NCBI GenBank assembly: GCA_002753395.1
Contig: PEAB01000026.1
Span: forward strand, 1 to 41,781
Length of the DNA: 41,781 bases
DNA from: Nitrospirae bacterium MYbinv3
GTDB taxonomy: Bacteria > Nitrospirota > Thermodesulfovibrionia > Thermodesulfovibrionales > Magnetobacteriaceae
Direction: 5' to 3'
The translations under genes and the position numbers were made by a program. Positions within the stretch are counted from its first letter, which is position 1; each line of letters starts with the position of its first letter. The notes below the pieces were generated by a model, which was not told the DNA's origin, searched no databases, and was given only the letters and a program-made list of their open reading frames with translations. This document shows, one piece after another, positions 4,263 through 36,572 of the stretch.

Positions 4263-4426
4263 TGGGTGCATAAGAACCACCATGACCTTACTAACACAAC
4301 AAGTAATGAAAGTCATTGATATGGGGAGTTTAATGGGGTCAAGGGGACTGGTCCCCTTGCGGAGGGGTTTGAGGGGAGGCAGAGCCTCCCCTTCTTTAAA
4401 AAAAACACGACTTTCTTATGCACCCA
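4263..4426. mobile_element. MITE-like element 1 with 14-bp terminal inverted repeats
   Basis: This 164-bp non-coding element begins TGGGTGCATAAGAA and ends with the exact inverted copy TTCTTATGCACCCA. It is flanked by the 5-bp direct repeat GAGAA (4258-4262 and 4427-4431), a likely target-site duplication. The interior carries a small palindrome around AATGAAAGTCATT and one copy of the GC-rich double-hairpin repeat (4335-4393). A longer copy in the opposite orientation lies at 25299-25521. It encodes no transposase, so it would need one acting in trans. Confidence 0.8.
4335..4393 (+). repeat. GC-rich double-hairpin repeat, copy R1
   Basis: The repeat starts GGGGTCAAGGGGAC and contains two perfect palindromes: AAGGGGACTGGTCCCCTT and GGGGAGGCAGAGCCTCCCC. 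It lies inside MITE-like element 1. The spurious reading frames across it should not be annotated as genes. Confidence 0.85.
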
Positions 4427-4693: not shown

Positions 4694-4814
4694 TATTAAC
4701 TAACAAACAAATCAGAAAAAACTCACCATAAAAGAAGAATTGAATATCGAAATCTCAGCAAGGCTGCAAAAATAAAGCATAATAGGCGTTAAAACAACCA
4801 TTGCTGATATTTAC

Positions 4815-4900
4815 GGGGTCAAGGGGACTAGTTCCCTTGTGGGTGGGACTAGGGAGGGGGTTGCGAACCCCAGCGTCAGTAGGCAAAGCCCTCCCTATTT
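4815..4900 (+). repeat. GC-rich double-hairpin repeat, copy R2
   Basis: Begins GGGGTCAAGGGGACTAG and ends about 5 bp beyond the stop codon of the minus-strand YkgJ-like gene. It has the long form, with an extra palindrome GGGGTTGCGAACCCC in the middle that is also seen in R6 and, slightly changed, in R3. It lacks the terminal inverted repeats of the MITE-like copies. Confidence 0.8.
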
Positions 4901-5679: not shown

Positions 5680-5791
5680 AATTATTTATTTCCCTTCTGA
5701 TTTGGCATGTTATTATTGAATTTAGAAAAACAGTTATAACGGTACTAGCACTCAAAGCTAACATCTTAAGCAACCCACGACTGGCATTTAC

Positions 5792-5879
5792 GGGGTCAAG
5801 GGGTCGAGTTCCCTTGTGGGTGGTTTTAGGGAGGGGGTAGCGAACCCCTGCGTTAGTGGCAGCGCGCCCCCTTCTTTCC
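5792..5879 (+). repeat. GC-rich double-hairpin repeat, copy R3
   Basis: Directly abuts the qmoC stop codon (5880-5882). On its left it keeps a relic (AACATCTTAAGCAACC, 5757-5772) of the sequence found next to the core in the TAATGC-type elements at 15402 and 35533. It contains an imperfect version of the central palindrome (GGGGGTAGCGAACCCC). Confidence 0.8.
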
Positions 5880-15401: not shown

Positions 15402-15548
15402 TAATGCTGTTGACTTAAGCATTAGGTCTATGAGTCCAGGTAACATCTTAAGCAACCACGCCAGACATTTACGGGGTCAAGGGGACGAGTCCCCTTGCGG
15501 AGGGGTCTGAGGGGAGGTAGAGCCTCCCCTTCTTAAGTCAGCCTTTTA
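15402..15548. mobile_element. TAATGC-type MITE-like element, right end decayed
   Basis: The left end TAATGCTGTTGACTTAAG is identical to the ends of the element at 35533-35707, and the two share the inner segment TTAAGCAACCACGCC. The right end is degraded (CTTAAGTCA then GCCTTTTA) and runs into the stop codon of the minus-strand histidine kinase. The kinase's TAA may be donated by the element's terminal TAA. It contains hairpin repeat R4. Confidence 0.65.
15473..15531 (+). repeat. GC-rich double-hairpin repeat, copy R4
   Basis: Same core as R1, beginning GGGGTCAAGGGGACGAG and ending with the palindrome GGGGAGGTAGAGCCTCCCC. It lies 15 bp past the stop codon of the minus-strand histidine kinase gene. 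Confidence 0.85.
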
Positions 15549-17162
15549 TGTGGCTATTGAGAGGTTTACGCCTTCGCTGCACTTTGCCAGGTCAGCGGGG
15601 ATTGTGGTGATTGGGAGTTTTACCGTGAAGGTGGTGCCGCGGTTGACCTTTGTGTCGACGGTGATCTGGCCGCCGTGTTTTGCTATTATGCCCTGCGATA
15701 CAGACAGACCAAGACCGGTACCCTTACCTTTTGATTTAGTGGTAAAAAATGGGTCAAAGATATGATGTAGTATGTGATCGGGGATGCCTGTTCCGTAATC
15801 GATCACTTTTACGGAGACAAAGTTTGGCTCCTCCGAAGGCCCCACGTGTATCTTGAGATGCCCGCCTTTACGTGTCACATCAAGGGCGTTGAGGAGCAGG
15901 TTGAGAAACACCTGTTCTAACTGGTGCCTGTCGCCATGAATACGGGGCAGGTTTGGCGCTATTTTCAGGTCCACGTTAACGCCTGCCAACTTTATCTGAT
16001 TCCCAGTGAGTTTGAGGGTGTCCCTCAGAACACCGCCAATACAGATGGGCTCCATGATGGTCTCACTTTCGCGGGCAAAGTCCAGGAGATTGCGAACAAT
16101 GTTTCTTGCCCTCCCGGCCTCATCTGTAAGGTCTCTTACCATGTCAATCCTTTCCTCATCCGACAGATCGCTGTAGTCCTCTAAGAGCATGTGTGCCGTC
16201 AAGGTTATATTGTTTATAGGATTGTTGAGTTCATGGGCTATGCCGGAGGTCAGAGTCCCAACGGCACGGAGCTTTTGCGACTGTGCAAGTATCTGCTGCT
16301 GCCTGTCTAACTCCTTAATCAGGTAATCTATTGCCATTGACAGGTCAGAAAACTCATCATTGTAGTTATGGTCTGACATGATTGTGGTGTACTGTCCGTT
16401 TGCCATTAAGGTGGAGTACTTAGAGAACAGGTTAATGGCTCTCAGCACCCTTTTACCTAAGAGGTGCGATATAAACAACATAAAGAAGATTAAAAACACC
16501 AGGGCATATAGGTGAACTGTTCTGAAGTGGATTATTAATCTCTCTGTAGCGTCGCTCCCCTTTGATAACAGTTTTTCGGCTGAGTTTATCAACATAGAGC
16601 CGCATTGTTTGAGTTCTTTTTGAAGTCTTTCTTTCCTTTGAGCCTTATCGAGCTGGTCAAAGCCGTTTTTTACTCTATCCAGCTCTTCCATATTCTCCAG
16701 CAGCTTGACATATTTTTCGAGTAGACCGATAGAGTTTTCGTAATCTATGTGTTTTTTTAATTCACCATAGTGGGTTATCACCTGTTTTTCAAGTTTTTTT
16801 ATGACCTGTTTGCTCTCCTTAATCCCTGAGCCATAGAGGAAATAGTCTTTTTCAAACGATCGTGCTTGTGAGACGCTTGCATAAAAGTTGTTGGCAAATT
16901 CACTCAACTGCAAGCCCTTTTCCATCTTCACCATTGTTAGCAGCATAGAGGCGCCTATCCCCAGGGCCAGTATAAAAGTAACCACGAATCCTACATAGAT
17001 GTGTGCCTTAATCGTGAATCTGTATGGTTTTTTAGGGGTCTTCTCAACCGCCTCTATACCGGCGCCCTTTGTTTCCTCACGTTGGTCAATCTGCTTGTCG
17101 ATTAACTTCTTGAGCCATTGTAAGACGCACTTATACCGTTTATCGATACAATCTTTCATCAT
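15546..17162 (-). CDS. Membrane sensor histidine kinase
   Basis: The 538-residue protein has a cytoplasmic N-terminus and TM1 at about 55-77. An extracytoplasmic all-helical sensor follows (about 80-212, with ARSFEKDYFLYG, reminiscent of helical-bundle sensors), then TM2 at about 216-236, a HAMP-like linker, a HisKA domain with the phospho-accepting H310 (GIAHELNNP), and a HATPase domain with N, G1 (DYGTGIP) and G2 (GKGTGLGL) boxes. The ligand is unknown. It is 75 bp downstream of a single-domain response regulator on the same strand and is very likely its partner. Its start lacks a strong ribosome-binding site. The stop codon borders or lies within a MITE-like element. Confidence 0.9.
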   Translation of the reverse strand: MMKDCIDKRYKCVLQWLKKLIDKQIDQREETKGAGIEAVEKTPKKPYRFTIKAHIYVGFVVTFILALGIGASMLLTMVKMEKGLQLSEFANNFYASVSQARSFEKDYFLYGSGIKESKQVIKKLEKQVITHYGELKKHIDYENSIGLLEKYVKLLENMEELDRVKNGFDQLDKAQRKERLQKELKQCGSMLINSAEKLLSKGSDATERLIIHFRTVHLYALVFLIFFMLFISHLLGKRVLRAINLFSKYSTLMANGQYTTIMSDHNYNDEFSDLSMAIDYLIKELDRQQQILAQSQKLRAVGTLTSGIAHELNNPINNITLTAHMLLEDYSDLSDEERIDMVRDLTDEAGRARNIVRNLLDFARESETIMEPICIGGVLRDTLKLTGNQIKLAGVNVDLKIAPNLPRIHGDRHQLEQVFLNLLLNALDVTRKGGHLKIHVGPSEEPNFVSVKVIDYGTGIPDHILHHIFDPFFTTKSKGKGTGLGLSVSQGIIAKHGGQITVDTKVNRGTTFTVKLPITTIPADLAKCSEGVNLSIAT

Positions 17163-19359: not shown

Positions 19360-20883
19360 ATCCCTACAACGACACAATGTCTTGATTAGTTTTGAGTTTA
19401 TTCTTGCTATGAGAGATATATGAACGGTAATTTCGAGCATAAATCCATCTTGTTATTTCAAGTGCCATTTGGGTAGTGAGATTAATGATAGGCAAAACAG
19501 TTTTTATAAGGAATCTAATCTGAGACAGAGTAATGAACGGAGATTTTTCCCCCCAAAATTATCCGCAAATGCCAGAGAAAAAAATGAGCCAACATACATG
19601 TCAACATATGATGATTCCAACCAGCGTATTTCCTCACTTCATAATGGTCCATGCCCAATTCTGTTTTAGCCTCTCCAAAACACTGTTCTATAGCCCAGCG
19701 TATACCGCTTAACCAAATAAATCGCTTCAATCTGGTACTTACTGAAGCATTGCTCATGTAATAATAATAGGTAGGATTATCTTCTAATGTTCTTTTTACC
19801 AAAAGCCATACTGTCTTGTAAGGAGCGCCATTCTTGCTTAGGATTATCCTTCTTTTAGTAAACTCATACTCTATTGCACCCTTTGTTCCTTCTGAGACTT
19901 TACGCCGATACCAGAAACAAGCATTAAGTGCCCTGGCAAATCTATCTACTCTTATCGGCTTCTTACCACTATGTACCACTTTTTTTGTTTTCTTTTGACC
20001 TTTATGTTTGTACTCTTTTTTTAATACAACAGGTGCATCTATCCACAATAGTGTATCACATGGGATGGAAACAAGATATGTAATCCCTATTACAGACTCA
20101 ACGGCTTCAATGAAGTCAGGACTGTTACCATATAATGTATCAGACACCACGCTCTTAAATGCAATAGTACCTGCCTTAGATATTTCTGTAAACATCTCAG
20201 AAGCAAGTTGAGGCTTTGTTTTAAACCCAATAGAGTCTGGTAAGCCAGTTTTTGCTCTCTTGTCTGCGTAATCTTCTGTAAACCACTTTTCTGGGATAAA
20301 AAGCCTCTTATCCAAAAGAGCGTAACCATGTCGTGACGCATAAGCCGTAAACACTCCTACCTGACAATTGTCTACCTTCCCTATCGTTCCACAGTACTGT
20401 CTTGCAACTGCGACAGAATCACTACCCTTTTTGATAAACCCAGATTCATCAAAGATTAAAACACCATCACCATCTCCCATATCAGAACTTACCATATTAT
20501 GGTATTTGGATAACATCAGCGATTCATCCCACTTGGTGTCGCTAATTAGCCTCTGAATATTCCTTACCTTACCACCATCTACTTTGAACGATATTGGTTC
20601 TATAGACTTCCGCTCCAGATCACTAAATTGACCTACCATATACTGATAGAATTTTTGCCTTGCAGCATCCCTCTCAAAACAATCAGCAAACTCGCTGTGG
20701 AATCCTTGCAGTTTAACCATAAATCCATCGATGTCTTCTTTTACTAACTCCATTTTTGGAACTGAGTATGCGTCTATTTCTACTTGATACTGTGGTTGCA
20801 TAACGTGCCTCCTTTTTATTTATTATTACACATTATACAACCAATTGTCTACCATATATCTTATATTGTGTCGTTGTAGGGAT
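19360..20883 (-). mobile_element. IS701-like insertion sequence
   Basis: A complete 1524-bp element bounded by perfect 19-bp inverted repeats ATCCCTACAACGACACAAT (19360-19378) and its complement (20865-20883), enclosing one transposase gene on the minus strand. I cannot assign a convincing target duplication; only TA matches if the ends are taken one base further in. It lies between the promoter region of the receiver-like/two-TM pair and the helicase gene. Confidence 0.85.
19515..20801 (-). CDS. IS701-family DDE transposase
   Basis: The 428-residue transposase is apparently intact. It shows the family block IFDESGF...GSDSVAVARQYCG (D118), the second aspartate in VVSDTLYGN (D221) and the catalytic glutamate region WAIEQCFGEAK (E372 or E378). 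The ATG follows GGAGGCACGTT. The gene occupies most of the IS, with about 80 bp on the left-hand side and 140 bp on the right as non-coding ends. Nothing suggests inactivation, so the element may still move. Confidence 0.9.
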   Translation of the reverse strand: MQPQYQVEIDAYSVPKMELVKEDIDGFMVKLQGFHSEFADCFERDAARQKFYQYMVGQFSDLERKSIEPISFKVDGGKVRNIQRLISDTKWDESLMLSKYHNMVSSDMGDGDGVLIFDESGFIKKGSDSVAVARQYCGTIGKVDNCQVGVFTAYASRHGYALLDKRLFIPEKWFTEDYADKRAKTGLPDSIGFKTKPQLASEMFTEISKAGTIAFKSVVSDTLYGNSPDFIEAVESVIGITYLVSIPCDTLLWIDAPVVLKKEYKHKGQKKTKKVVHSGKKPIRVDRFARALNACFWYRRKVSEGTKGAIEYEFTKRRIILSKNGAPYKTVWLLVKRTLEDNPTYYYYMSNASVSTRLKRFIWLSGIRWAIEQCFGEAKTELGMDHYEVRKYAGWNHHMLTCMLAHFFLWHLRIILGGKISVHYSVSD

Positions 20884-24863: not shown

Positions 24864-25248
24864 TTAATAAGTCTCTGTTTTTGTATGTGGTCTATGTAAT
24901 CTAAACTGTATCCCCTTTAAAAAGCATTGTAATTTATTTTATGGTTTCAATACATGGATTCCCACTTTCGTGGGAATGACAGTAATAGCCGCTTTCCAAG
25001 TATGTCATTCCTGCGAAAGCAGGAATCCAGAAAACTTAAAAGCATAGTTACCATGAAATATTTAAGAAGATACATCTCACTATATGATGCTTAGTGTCAT
25101 TGTTTATAAAAGCTACCCTTGAACCCGATGTTTTTCCAGTGCTTAACTCCCGGTAGTTTAACATTATCAGCAGTTTTCTTAGCTCATCATATTTGAAGTC
25201 AGTCGGCTTTGAGAGAAATCGTTCTAATAATTTATCAGCCTTGCCCAC
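24864..25248 (-). pseudogene. hicA: hicA toxin gene disrupted by a hairpin repeat
   Basis: The frame from the GTG at 25248 gives 66 residues. The first 50 or so are a clear HicA mRNA-interferase (DKLLERFLSKPTDFKYDELRKLL ... GKTSGSRVAFINNDTKH). The frame then leaves the family and stops at 25048. Past an inserted hairpin repeat (24955-25030 and flanks), another frame encodes RLHRPH (24902-24885), the segment that normally follows NDTKH in HicA, and soon ends at a stop (24864-24866) next to hicB. The catalytic histidine of HicA (GSR...H region) precedes the break or straddles it. Read-through of a functional toxin is very unlikely. Confidence 0.8.
24955..25030. repeat. GGATTCC...GGAATGAC palindromic repeat inside hicA
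   Basis: Two hairpins (CCCACTTTCGTGGG and CCTGCGAAAGCAGG) in inverted orientation form a large palindrome from TGGATTCCC to GGAATCCAG. This sequence type is widespread in bacterial genomes. Similar flanks on both sides (ATTTTATGG at 24936-24944 and CCATGAAAT at 25051-25059, with one mismatch) suggest it moved as a small element. Confidence 0.8.
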
Positions 25249-25298: not shown

Positions 25299-25521
25299 GG
25301 GTGCATAAGAAAGTCGTGTTTTTTTTCAAAGAATGGGAGGCTCTGCCCACTGTCGCAGGGGTTCGCAACCCCTCCCCTCAGCCCCCTCCGCAAGGGGATC
25401 AGTCCTCTTGACCCCATTAAACTCCCCATGAATTTTATATGAAAGTCTAAAAGTATCCTACATAATCAATGACTTTCATTGCTTGTTGTGTCCGTAAGGT
25501 CATGTTGGTTCTTATGCACCC
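25299..25521. mobile_element. MITE-like element 2, longer copy
   Basis: Inverted repeats GGGTGCATAAGAA (25299-25311) and TTCTTATGCACCC (25509-25521) bound a 223-bp element that, in reverse orientation, matches element 1: ACACAACAAGCAATGAAAGTCATTGAT-type segment, then ATGGGGAGTTTAATGGGGTCAAG, then the repeat core and a CACGACTTTC end. It is longer by an extra stretch around 25429-25470 and the central palindrome of R6. No target duplication is evident, and a second partial end (CTTATGCACC) follows at 25522-25531. It fills most of the gap between the hicA start and the gene at 25609. Confidence 0.8.
25332..25415 (-). repeat. GC-rich double-hairpin repeat, copy R6
   Basis: Long form with the central GGGGTTCGCAACCCC palindrome, inside MITE-like element 2. 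Unlike the others it lies between divergent genes and is not at a 3' end. Confidence 0.8.
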
Positions 25522-29327: not shown

Positions 29328-29360
29328 ATAATGCCTTACCCCTGTGTACGATACAAAGGA

Positions 29361-29420
29361 GAAGGGGAGGCTCTGCAGCCCCTCAGACCTCTCCGCAAGG
29401 GGACCAGTCCCCTTGACCCC
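29361..29420 (-). repeat. GC-rich double-hairpin repeat, copy R7
   Basis: Inverse orientation, GAAGGGGAGGC to GACCCC, with the perfect hairpin AAGGGGACCAGTCCCCTT. The other palindrome is shortened. It sits after the nitroreductase stop and before pilC. A TATAAT at 29465-29470 beyond it could be a -10 for pilC, but no good -35 is seen. Confidence 0.85.
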
Positions 29421-29584
29421 ATTAAAATGATGCGTATTTTGTATTTAATCAAATAGAAATCTGTTATAATTGTCCTGGATACTGGTAAAATTAGAGTTAA
29501 ATATAGTAGTATAGAGCGTATGATGAGTGAATCAATTGCTAGGTGAGTGCAGAAAAAGCATTATAGATAGCAGAAGGGGGGCGT

Positions 29585-35369: not shown

Positions 35370-35532
35370 TACTAATAGTATACGTCATCGCGTGTAAAAT
35401 AACTAACCACTTTTGTACTCACCAAGCCCCTACTGCCTTCTTCATCCTTTCCTTAATTGTATCAATACTGATACCAATTTGCGTTTATACCAGTATTAGT
35501 ATAGAAGGGGAGACCCTGTCTCCCCTCAGACC

Positions 35533-35707
35533 TAATGCTGTTGACTTAAGATTGTGAAGATGAAAAAAGGAGGGCTTTGCCCTCCCTTAGACCCACCCAC
35601 AAGGGAACTTGTTCCCTTGATCCTGTAAATGTCAGGCGTGGTTGCTTAAAATGTCACCCATGTGCATATATTTTGCGTACATATTAATGCTTAAGTCAAC
35701 AGCATTA
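35533..35707. mobile_element. TAATGC-type MITE-like element with 11-bp target duplication
   Basis: A 175-bp element with perfect 18-bp inverted repeats TAATGCTGTTGACTTAAG (35533-35550) and its complement (35690-35707). It is flanked by the direct repeat CCCCTCAGACC (35522-35532 and 35708-35718), the target-site duplication. Inside is a further copy of the hairpin repeat (R9). An 11-bp duplication is the length range of IS4-type elements, but no matching transposase is in the window. Confidence 0.88.
35567..35626 (-). repeat. GC-rich double-hairpin repeat, divergent copy R9
   Basis: GGAGGGCTTTGCCCTCC and CAAGGGAACTTGTTCCCTTG hairpins. Both arms have changed together relative to R1, keeping the pairing. 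It is carried within the TAATGC-type element. Confidence 0.8.
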
Positions 35708-35843
35708 CCCCTCAGACCCCTCCGCAAGGGGAGGGGTGAGGCACCCCGGCCACAAAGAAGTCCCCTTGACCCCATTAAAGTTCAACTTTTTTGGATGCAA
35801 CTTAGTATAAAATATAAGAAATAGACAAGGAAGGTGGTTCCAT

Positions 35844-36325: not shown

Positions 36326-36471
36326 TATAGTTTTGCACTTTCTGGATTCCTGCTTTCGCAGGAATGACATAGAGGGGCTAAATGCGCCATTTGCTGTCAT
36401 TCCCGCGTAACCGGGAATCTATTTTCAAGAGCTGTATAAAATGCTGGTTTATAAAAAAGTGCAAAAGTATA
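36326..36471. mobile_element. MITE-like element carrying the GGATTCC-type hairpin repeat
   Basis: The ends TATAGTTTTGCACTTT (36326-36341) and AAAGTGCAAAAGTATA (36456-36471) are inverted repeats with one mismatch. Between them lies an inverted pair of GGATTCCTGCTTTCGCAGGAATGAC-type hairpins (36342-36420), the same repeat that broke hicA. No coding potential. Confidence 0.65.
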
Positions 36472-36572
36472 GAAACCATATAAAAAAGTACTCATACAAG
36501 ATTGCTTAACCATAAAGTTCTCCGTAGATGAATACCTCATCTTATGAATGCAACTTGATATAAAGCAGCCTT

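Follow-up and report, generated by a model that had tools for sequence, protein, structure and literature searches.

Within the 41,781 nucleotides of contig PEAB01000026.1 of Nitrospirae bacterium MYbinv3 analysed here (the window), one copy of a dispersed repeat, R, is interrupted by a 175-bp sequence that itself holds a diverged copy of R. This arrangement raises the questions of how the sequence came to lie in that copy (R8), which enzyme moved it, and whether the R copy that it carries had any part in the choice of target. The MYbinv3 genome (G000; 3.71 Mb in 175 contigs, 97% complete), which falls in the genus of the magnetotactic Ca. Magnetobacterium, was compared with three sister species (G001 to G003); L-numbers denote individual loci examined.

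The 175-bp element and its insertion into R8

The interrupted repeat is composed as follows.

35504..35532, minus strand: first half of R8, including one duplicate; aligns to the R copies at 4352-4398, 15490-15533 and 29360-29403 and to sister-species copies
35522..35532, no strand assigned: target-site duplication, left copy, 11 bp, CCCCTCAGACC
35533..35707, no strand assigned: non-autonomous element (MITE), 175 bp, with perfect 18-bp terminal inverted repeats
35533..35550, plus strand: left terminal inverted repeat TAATGCTGTTGACTTAAG, which fits the end consensus of subgroup IS4, -AATR--------WTW---- (PMC2266710)
about 35564..35630, minus strand: R9, the diverged R copy inside the element, with core GGTCTAAGGGA instead of GGTCTGAGGGG
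35690..35707, minus strand: right terminal inverted repeat, 18/18 complementary to the left end
35708..35718, no strand assigned: target-site duplication, right copy, 11 bp, CCCCTCAGACC
35719..35777, minus strand: R8, second half; the GGGGTGAGGCACCCCGGCCACAAAGAA segment of this variant is common in the genus

When the element is removed together with one duplicate, the flanks form a continuous R copy with no break at the junction. Rejoined R8 aligns without gaps over 44-47 bp to the uninterrupted window copies at 4352-4398 and 15490-15533, and to sister-species copies over 86 bp at 90% identity (L183) and 91-96 bp at 90-91% (L185 and L187); window positions 35708-35778 match dozens of places in G001-G003 at ~90-97%. 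The initial annotation had described a 175-bp element with perfect 18-bp inverted repeats and an 11-bp flanking duplication, the removal of which restores R8, and the coordinates and ungapped alignments confirm all of this. It had also allowed that the 11-mer might be a built-in part of every repeat copy; this fails, the 11-mer CCCCTCAGACC being present once per uninterrupted R copy. The empty site that it had hoped to see in related strains proved uninformative, as both R8 and the element are missing at the orthologous place in G001 and G003, where the upstream kinase gene is conserved at ~74%. Comparison of the aligned copies thus supports the reading that a small non-autonomous element was inserted into R8 by transposition.

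Several other sequences in the window are related to the element or to R.

15402..15549, no strand assigned: decayed second element of the family, left end (15402-15419) intact, right end ~11/18
4789..4858, no strand assigned: relic of the interior of the 175-bp element, ~83-87% identical, ends beyond recognition
5759..5835, no strand assigned: relic of the same interior, ~83-86% identical, ends beyond recognition
29360..29426, minus strand: uninterrupted R copy, an unoccupied target with intact core CCCCTCAGACC

The decayed element holds an R copy (15468-15534) whose core is still intact. Ends of the TAATGCTGTTGACTTAAG type occur three times in the window, against a shuffle mean of 0.04. Two further elements (4264-4425 and 25299-25521), bounded by GGGTGCATAAGAA inverted ends unrelated to TAATGCTGTTGACTTAAG, each contain an R copy with a close variant of the core and constitute a second carrier of R; no clear target duplication was seen at them. 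The window also contains a ~147-bp repeat of the CTGGATTCCTGCTTTCGCAGGAATGACA type (36326-36472), with many copies genus-wide at 78-98% identity and a related inverted copy at 24954-25046, and a gene for an IS701-family transposase of 428 aa (19515-20801, minus strand; NF033540, 321 bits) that is unrelated to the 175-bp element.

A large family of elements with two target repeats

Bacterial MITEs are short, non-coding sequences with terminal inverted repeats and target duplications that occur in many copies. The 175-bp element is a MITE and a member of a large family: G000 has 238 matches to the TAATGCTGTTGACTTAAG-type end (115 + 123, with at most 2 mismatches) and none to the reversed control, and 43 complete elements were collected, short (126-187 bp, with size classes mostly near 128, 164-167 and 175 bp), non-coding, and provided with terminal inverted repeats and target duplications. 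Near-identical copies (98%) of the 175-bp element itself lie on two other contigs (G000:C117:57898-58072 and C78:10999-11173). Among 60 relatives, the exact 18-bp ends are confined to this genus, with 175 occurrences in G000 and 3, 23 and 24 in the sisters.

A perfect 11-bp duplication flanks 23 of the 43 complete elements, and 36 of the 43 have flanks that agree in at least 8 of 11 positions; at other lengths between 5 and 15 bp no perfect duplication is seen (0/43). The initial annotation had proposed that its reading would fall if other elements with these ends lacked duplications, and these counts dispose of that objection. Because the rare target variants GGGGTGAGCCA and GGTCTGAGGGT are likewise duplicated exactly, the flanking 11-mers represent a true duplication rather than a mere conserved motif. 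Seven of the 43 elements are without the duplication, which counts against the explanation preferred here. Two of these seven (L051 and L057) join an R site to a site in S, a repeat described below, and a third (L059) has S sites in opposite directions; such hybrid flanks are as expected of recombination between copies or of misassembly, and may have arisen in either way.

Nearly every well-preserved insertion falls at a single fixed position within either R or S, both of them dispersed repeats, and both orientations are represented at that base position; L021 clearly departs from this pattern, and a few other insertions are in diverged contexts. R consists of a core, GGTCTGAGGGG, between two hairpins. 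G000 has 231 occurrences of this core, compared with a single one of its reversed control, and the three sisters have 41, 46 and 173; an element end adjoins 26 of the 99 R cores among the matches listed in G000. S, which is unrelated to R, is a sharply bounded repeat of ~104 bp, GGTAGTCCTGCAGAGGTAGTG...GGGGTTAGGGG...CACCACTACTTGTGCAGGACTACC, with target core GGGGTTAGGGG, and flanks the insertions at L040, L044, L050 and others; its imperfect inverted ends (GGTAGTCCTGCA) indicate that S is itself MITE-like. With 48 uninterrupted S sites and 17 complete S-class insertions, roughly one S site in four is occupied, and S-class sites account for about half (17/36) of the insertions with recognisable duplications. 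The earlier proposal that the repeats serve as targets therefore stands for R, a very precise target used at one base position, and needs amendment only in that R is not the sole target, about half of the insertions being in S.

The candidate mover and the proposed mechanism of insertion

Matches to the PF01609 profile in G000 led to a locus (L031, on contig C101) that encodes the C-terminal 332 residues of a transposase, scoring 150 bits against the IS4-family model NF033592 (cut-off 115). Its translation contains the YREK signature Y(2)R(3)E(6)K (YFKRWAIEGGYRDEK) and fits the spacing D(60-110)D(100-150)E with D17, D95 and E211 (translation count), the two aspartates being assigned from motif context. 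The stop codon of this gene lies inside an end, CTTAAGTCAACAACATTA, which is followed directly by the S core GGGGTTAGGGG. Seven further IS fragments, two in G000 (L118 and L121) and five in the sister MAG G002 (L111, L117, L120, L122 and L124), have the exact 18-bp terminal repeat and are flanked by R-core sequence or a close variant of it. An intact autonomous IS was not found in the G000 draft assembly, where the transposase copies are incomplete, being either truncated or cut off at contig ends. A complete relative of 1487 bp, with an intact single-ORF transposase 43% identical over 328 residues (NF033592, 170 bits; cut-off 115), is present in a Methylococcaceae genome (L162, 1026-2512); its ends, CAATACTGTTGAATTAAG and CAATACTGTTGACTTAAG, are 2-3 mismatches off, it is flanked by an exact 11-bp duplication (ACGATCACCAG), and L091, a MITE with these ends, comes from the same genome.

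Subgroup IS4 is defined by ends of the form -AATR--------WTW----, a length of 1400-1650 bp, a 10-13 bp duplication and the YREK signature (PMC2266710). Comparison by eye with the published consensus indicates that TAATGCTGTTGACTTAAG fits it, and each of the defining features is found in one or other of the copies, the length and the intact ORF in L162 only. The likely mover is thus an IS4-family transposase that, judged from these features, fits subgroup IS4. An IS4-like enzyme had been suggested initially from the 11-bp duplication; the NF033592 match, the YREK signature and the ends now add their support. Of the full IS with these ends that was to be sought in the genome, IS4-family fragments with exact ends were found and an intact copy in G000 was not. 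The MITE and the IS share essentially only their ends, which, like the failure to find an intact copy in G000, counts against the explanation preferred here; descent of the MITE from the IS by simple internal deletion is no more than a possibility. In G002, two internally deleted IS copies of 654 bp and 454 bp (L099, 47-700, and L128, 1485-1938) retain both ends intact; these are intermediates between IS and MITE.

We consider it highly probable (about 0.93) that the element is a MITE of the IS4 family, fitting subgroup IS4, that was moved in trans by a DDE transposase into a fixed site in R or S with an 11-bp stagger. The ends, the duplications, the choice of target and the sharing of ends and targets with IS4 transposase gene fragments are all read from the DNA itself. 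The DDE transposase, probably supplied by the IS described above, would recognise the 18-bp ends TAATGCTGTTGACTTAAG and mobilise the MITE in trans; by a presumed cut-and-paste chemistry it would excise the element and insert it where an 11-bp staggered cut has opened a single, fixed G-rich target site, GG[T/G][C/G]T[G/T]AGGGG, which would happen to lie in R and S. Repair of the stagger would produce the 11-bp duplication, the target here being the R8 copy, and the R copy inside the MITE would be passive cargo.

The fact that the element both carries R and inserts into R invites a different reading, in which the internal R is address as well as cargo and homology directs the element to R repeats. 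Such homing is unlikely because the S sites and the IS copies show the same targeting: of the 36 insertions whose duplications can be recognised, 17 occupy S-class sites, which bear no relation to the cargo, and IS copies that lack R use the same R and S sites. The same 11-bp core is, moreover, used every time, with a duplication of the DDE type, and the chance that homology guides the element appears very slim. It has also to be asked whether transposition occurred at all, or whether the 11-mers on either side belong to the repeat itself and recombination between repeats produced the arrangement. Copies may indeed recombine, as the non-matching flanks of 7 of the 43 elements, some of them R-to-S (L051 and L057), would suggest; yet uninterrupted R copies have a single 11-mer, and 23 perfect duplications at exactly one length, rare variants included, refute recombination as a general explanation and leave it next to no probability.

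A third reading makes the element a mere bystander inserted in R, with R a REP/BIME-type repeat spread by a RAYT (Y1 transposase). The two-hairpin layout of R and its hundreds of copies are REP-like, and specific insertion into REPs is known for some ISs (PMC1525189), but no Y1_Tnp (PF01797) match exists in the 97%-complete G000, compared with matches in 5 of 14 control genomes, and at least two types of element with different ends contain R copies. Spread of R by a RAYT is accordingly improbable, and the account of a MITE moved in trans by an IS4-family transposase is retained.

Cargo, comparison with known systems and meaning

Of 41 readable element interiors, nearly all have GGTCTAAGGGA or GGTCTAGGGAG as the core, and not one has an intact core; given shared descent, the altered cores in 41 copies represent few events rather than 41. 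No element of the family is inserted in another (0/43); the left flank of L028, which reads GGTCTAAGGGA as though it were the inside of a sister element, was dropped as a candidate when the sequence further out was found to differ. The initial annotation had stated that the element carries a copy of the same repeat (R9), and an R-like copy with a diverged core is found there. Its broader claim, that the repeats move on small elements, holds for this diverged subtype, which lies inside nearly all of these MITEs and has been amplified along with them, and not for most R copies: those of the target type (~231 with GGTCTGAGGGG) are mostly outside these MITEs, and some stand alone in the window. 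In the sister MAG G003, a 310-bp element with these ends (L153, 1501-1810) holds a nested element of a third kind, GCGCGTTTCGATT...AACGCGCC, which carries its own R copy. One tentative and rather doubtful idea is that the family spares itself because the R copy it carries has lost the target core; it would do so as one of at least three MITE-like families (TAATGCTG-, GGGTGCATAAG- and GGTAGTCCTGCA-ended), which form a network by having target repeats of this kind in common or by supplying them.

Genomes from other phyla likewise have paired ends around short and often strongly self-complementary interiors: Desulfamplus (L087; folding z -10.6) and Methylobacter (L088; z -5.9), each with a perfect duplication, of 11 bp in the former, and further loci in Methylococcaceae (L091), Dive96 bacterium (L079 and L086), Desulfobacterales (L075) and Schekmanbacteria (L109). 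The G000 elements fold modestly (z -2 to -3). Unpaired exact 18-mers in other phyla (e.g. Pseudomonas L080, Lachnospiraceae L092 and Aminicenantes L100) were set aside, as ~7 chance matches are expected in 257 Gb by our own estimate. At L074, L086, L087, L088, L091 and L109, in the sister MAG G003 and several phyla, the 18-bp ends are the same or nearly so and the interior is different in each; because interiors differ between genomes, the ends are shared and the cargo is local.

The general traits of bacterial MITEs, a group covered by a review (PMC10969869), are all found here. The family departs from the usual MITEs in that its cargo is a version of its own target repeat and its second target, S, is itself MITE-like. 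It resembles subgroup IS4 (PMC2266710) in its ends, in an 11-bp duplication within the range of 10-13, in the YREK signature and DDE spacing of L031 and in the 1487-bp complete relative, and some members of that subgroup have very strict target sites (PMC2266710); unlike subgroup IS4 elements, it is represented here mostly by a high-copy non-coding derivative of 126-187 bp, with no intact autonomous copy seen in G000. Subgroup IS231 likewise makes 10-12 bp duplications with some insertion specificity (PMC2266710), but its ends begin CAT, as opposed to TAATG here, and the target core here is G-rich on one strand. A parallel in target choice is ISRm22 of Sinorhizobium meliloti, an IS4-family element that inserts into REP, a dispersed palindromic repeat (PMC1525189), and that belongs to subgroup IS4Sa with a 6-bp duplication (PMC2266710), being a full-length IS with 9 chromosomal copies. 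Both systems are of the IS4 family, use one point of a dispersed palindromic repeat and have hybrid flanks attributed to recombination between copies; the present one differs in its 11-bp duplication, in being a MITE and in having two unrelated target repeats. Insertion of ISs into palindromic repeats, including that of IS4-family ISRm22, is thus already known, and the present family is a clear, well-resolved case of a known kind of mobile DNA. A literature search, limited in reach, found no paper on this MITE family in Magnetobacterium.

The result is a MITE family for which the transposase group can be named, the length of the duplication is exact and both natural target repeats are precisely delimited. 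The target choice of IS4-type enzymes thereby becomes directly testable. The family accounts for part of the repeat load of the Magnetobacterium genome and probably for some of its assembly breaks, and the hybrid flanks suggest that its copies also mark chromosome rearrangements or misjoins.
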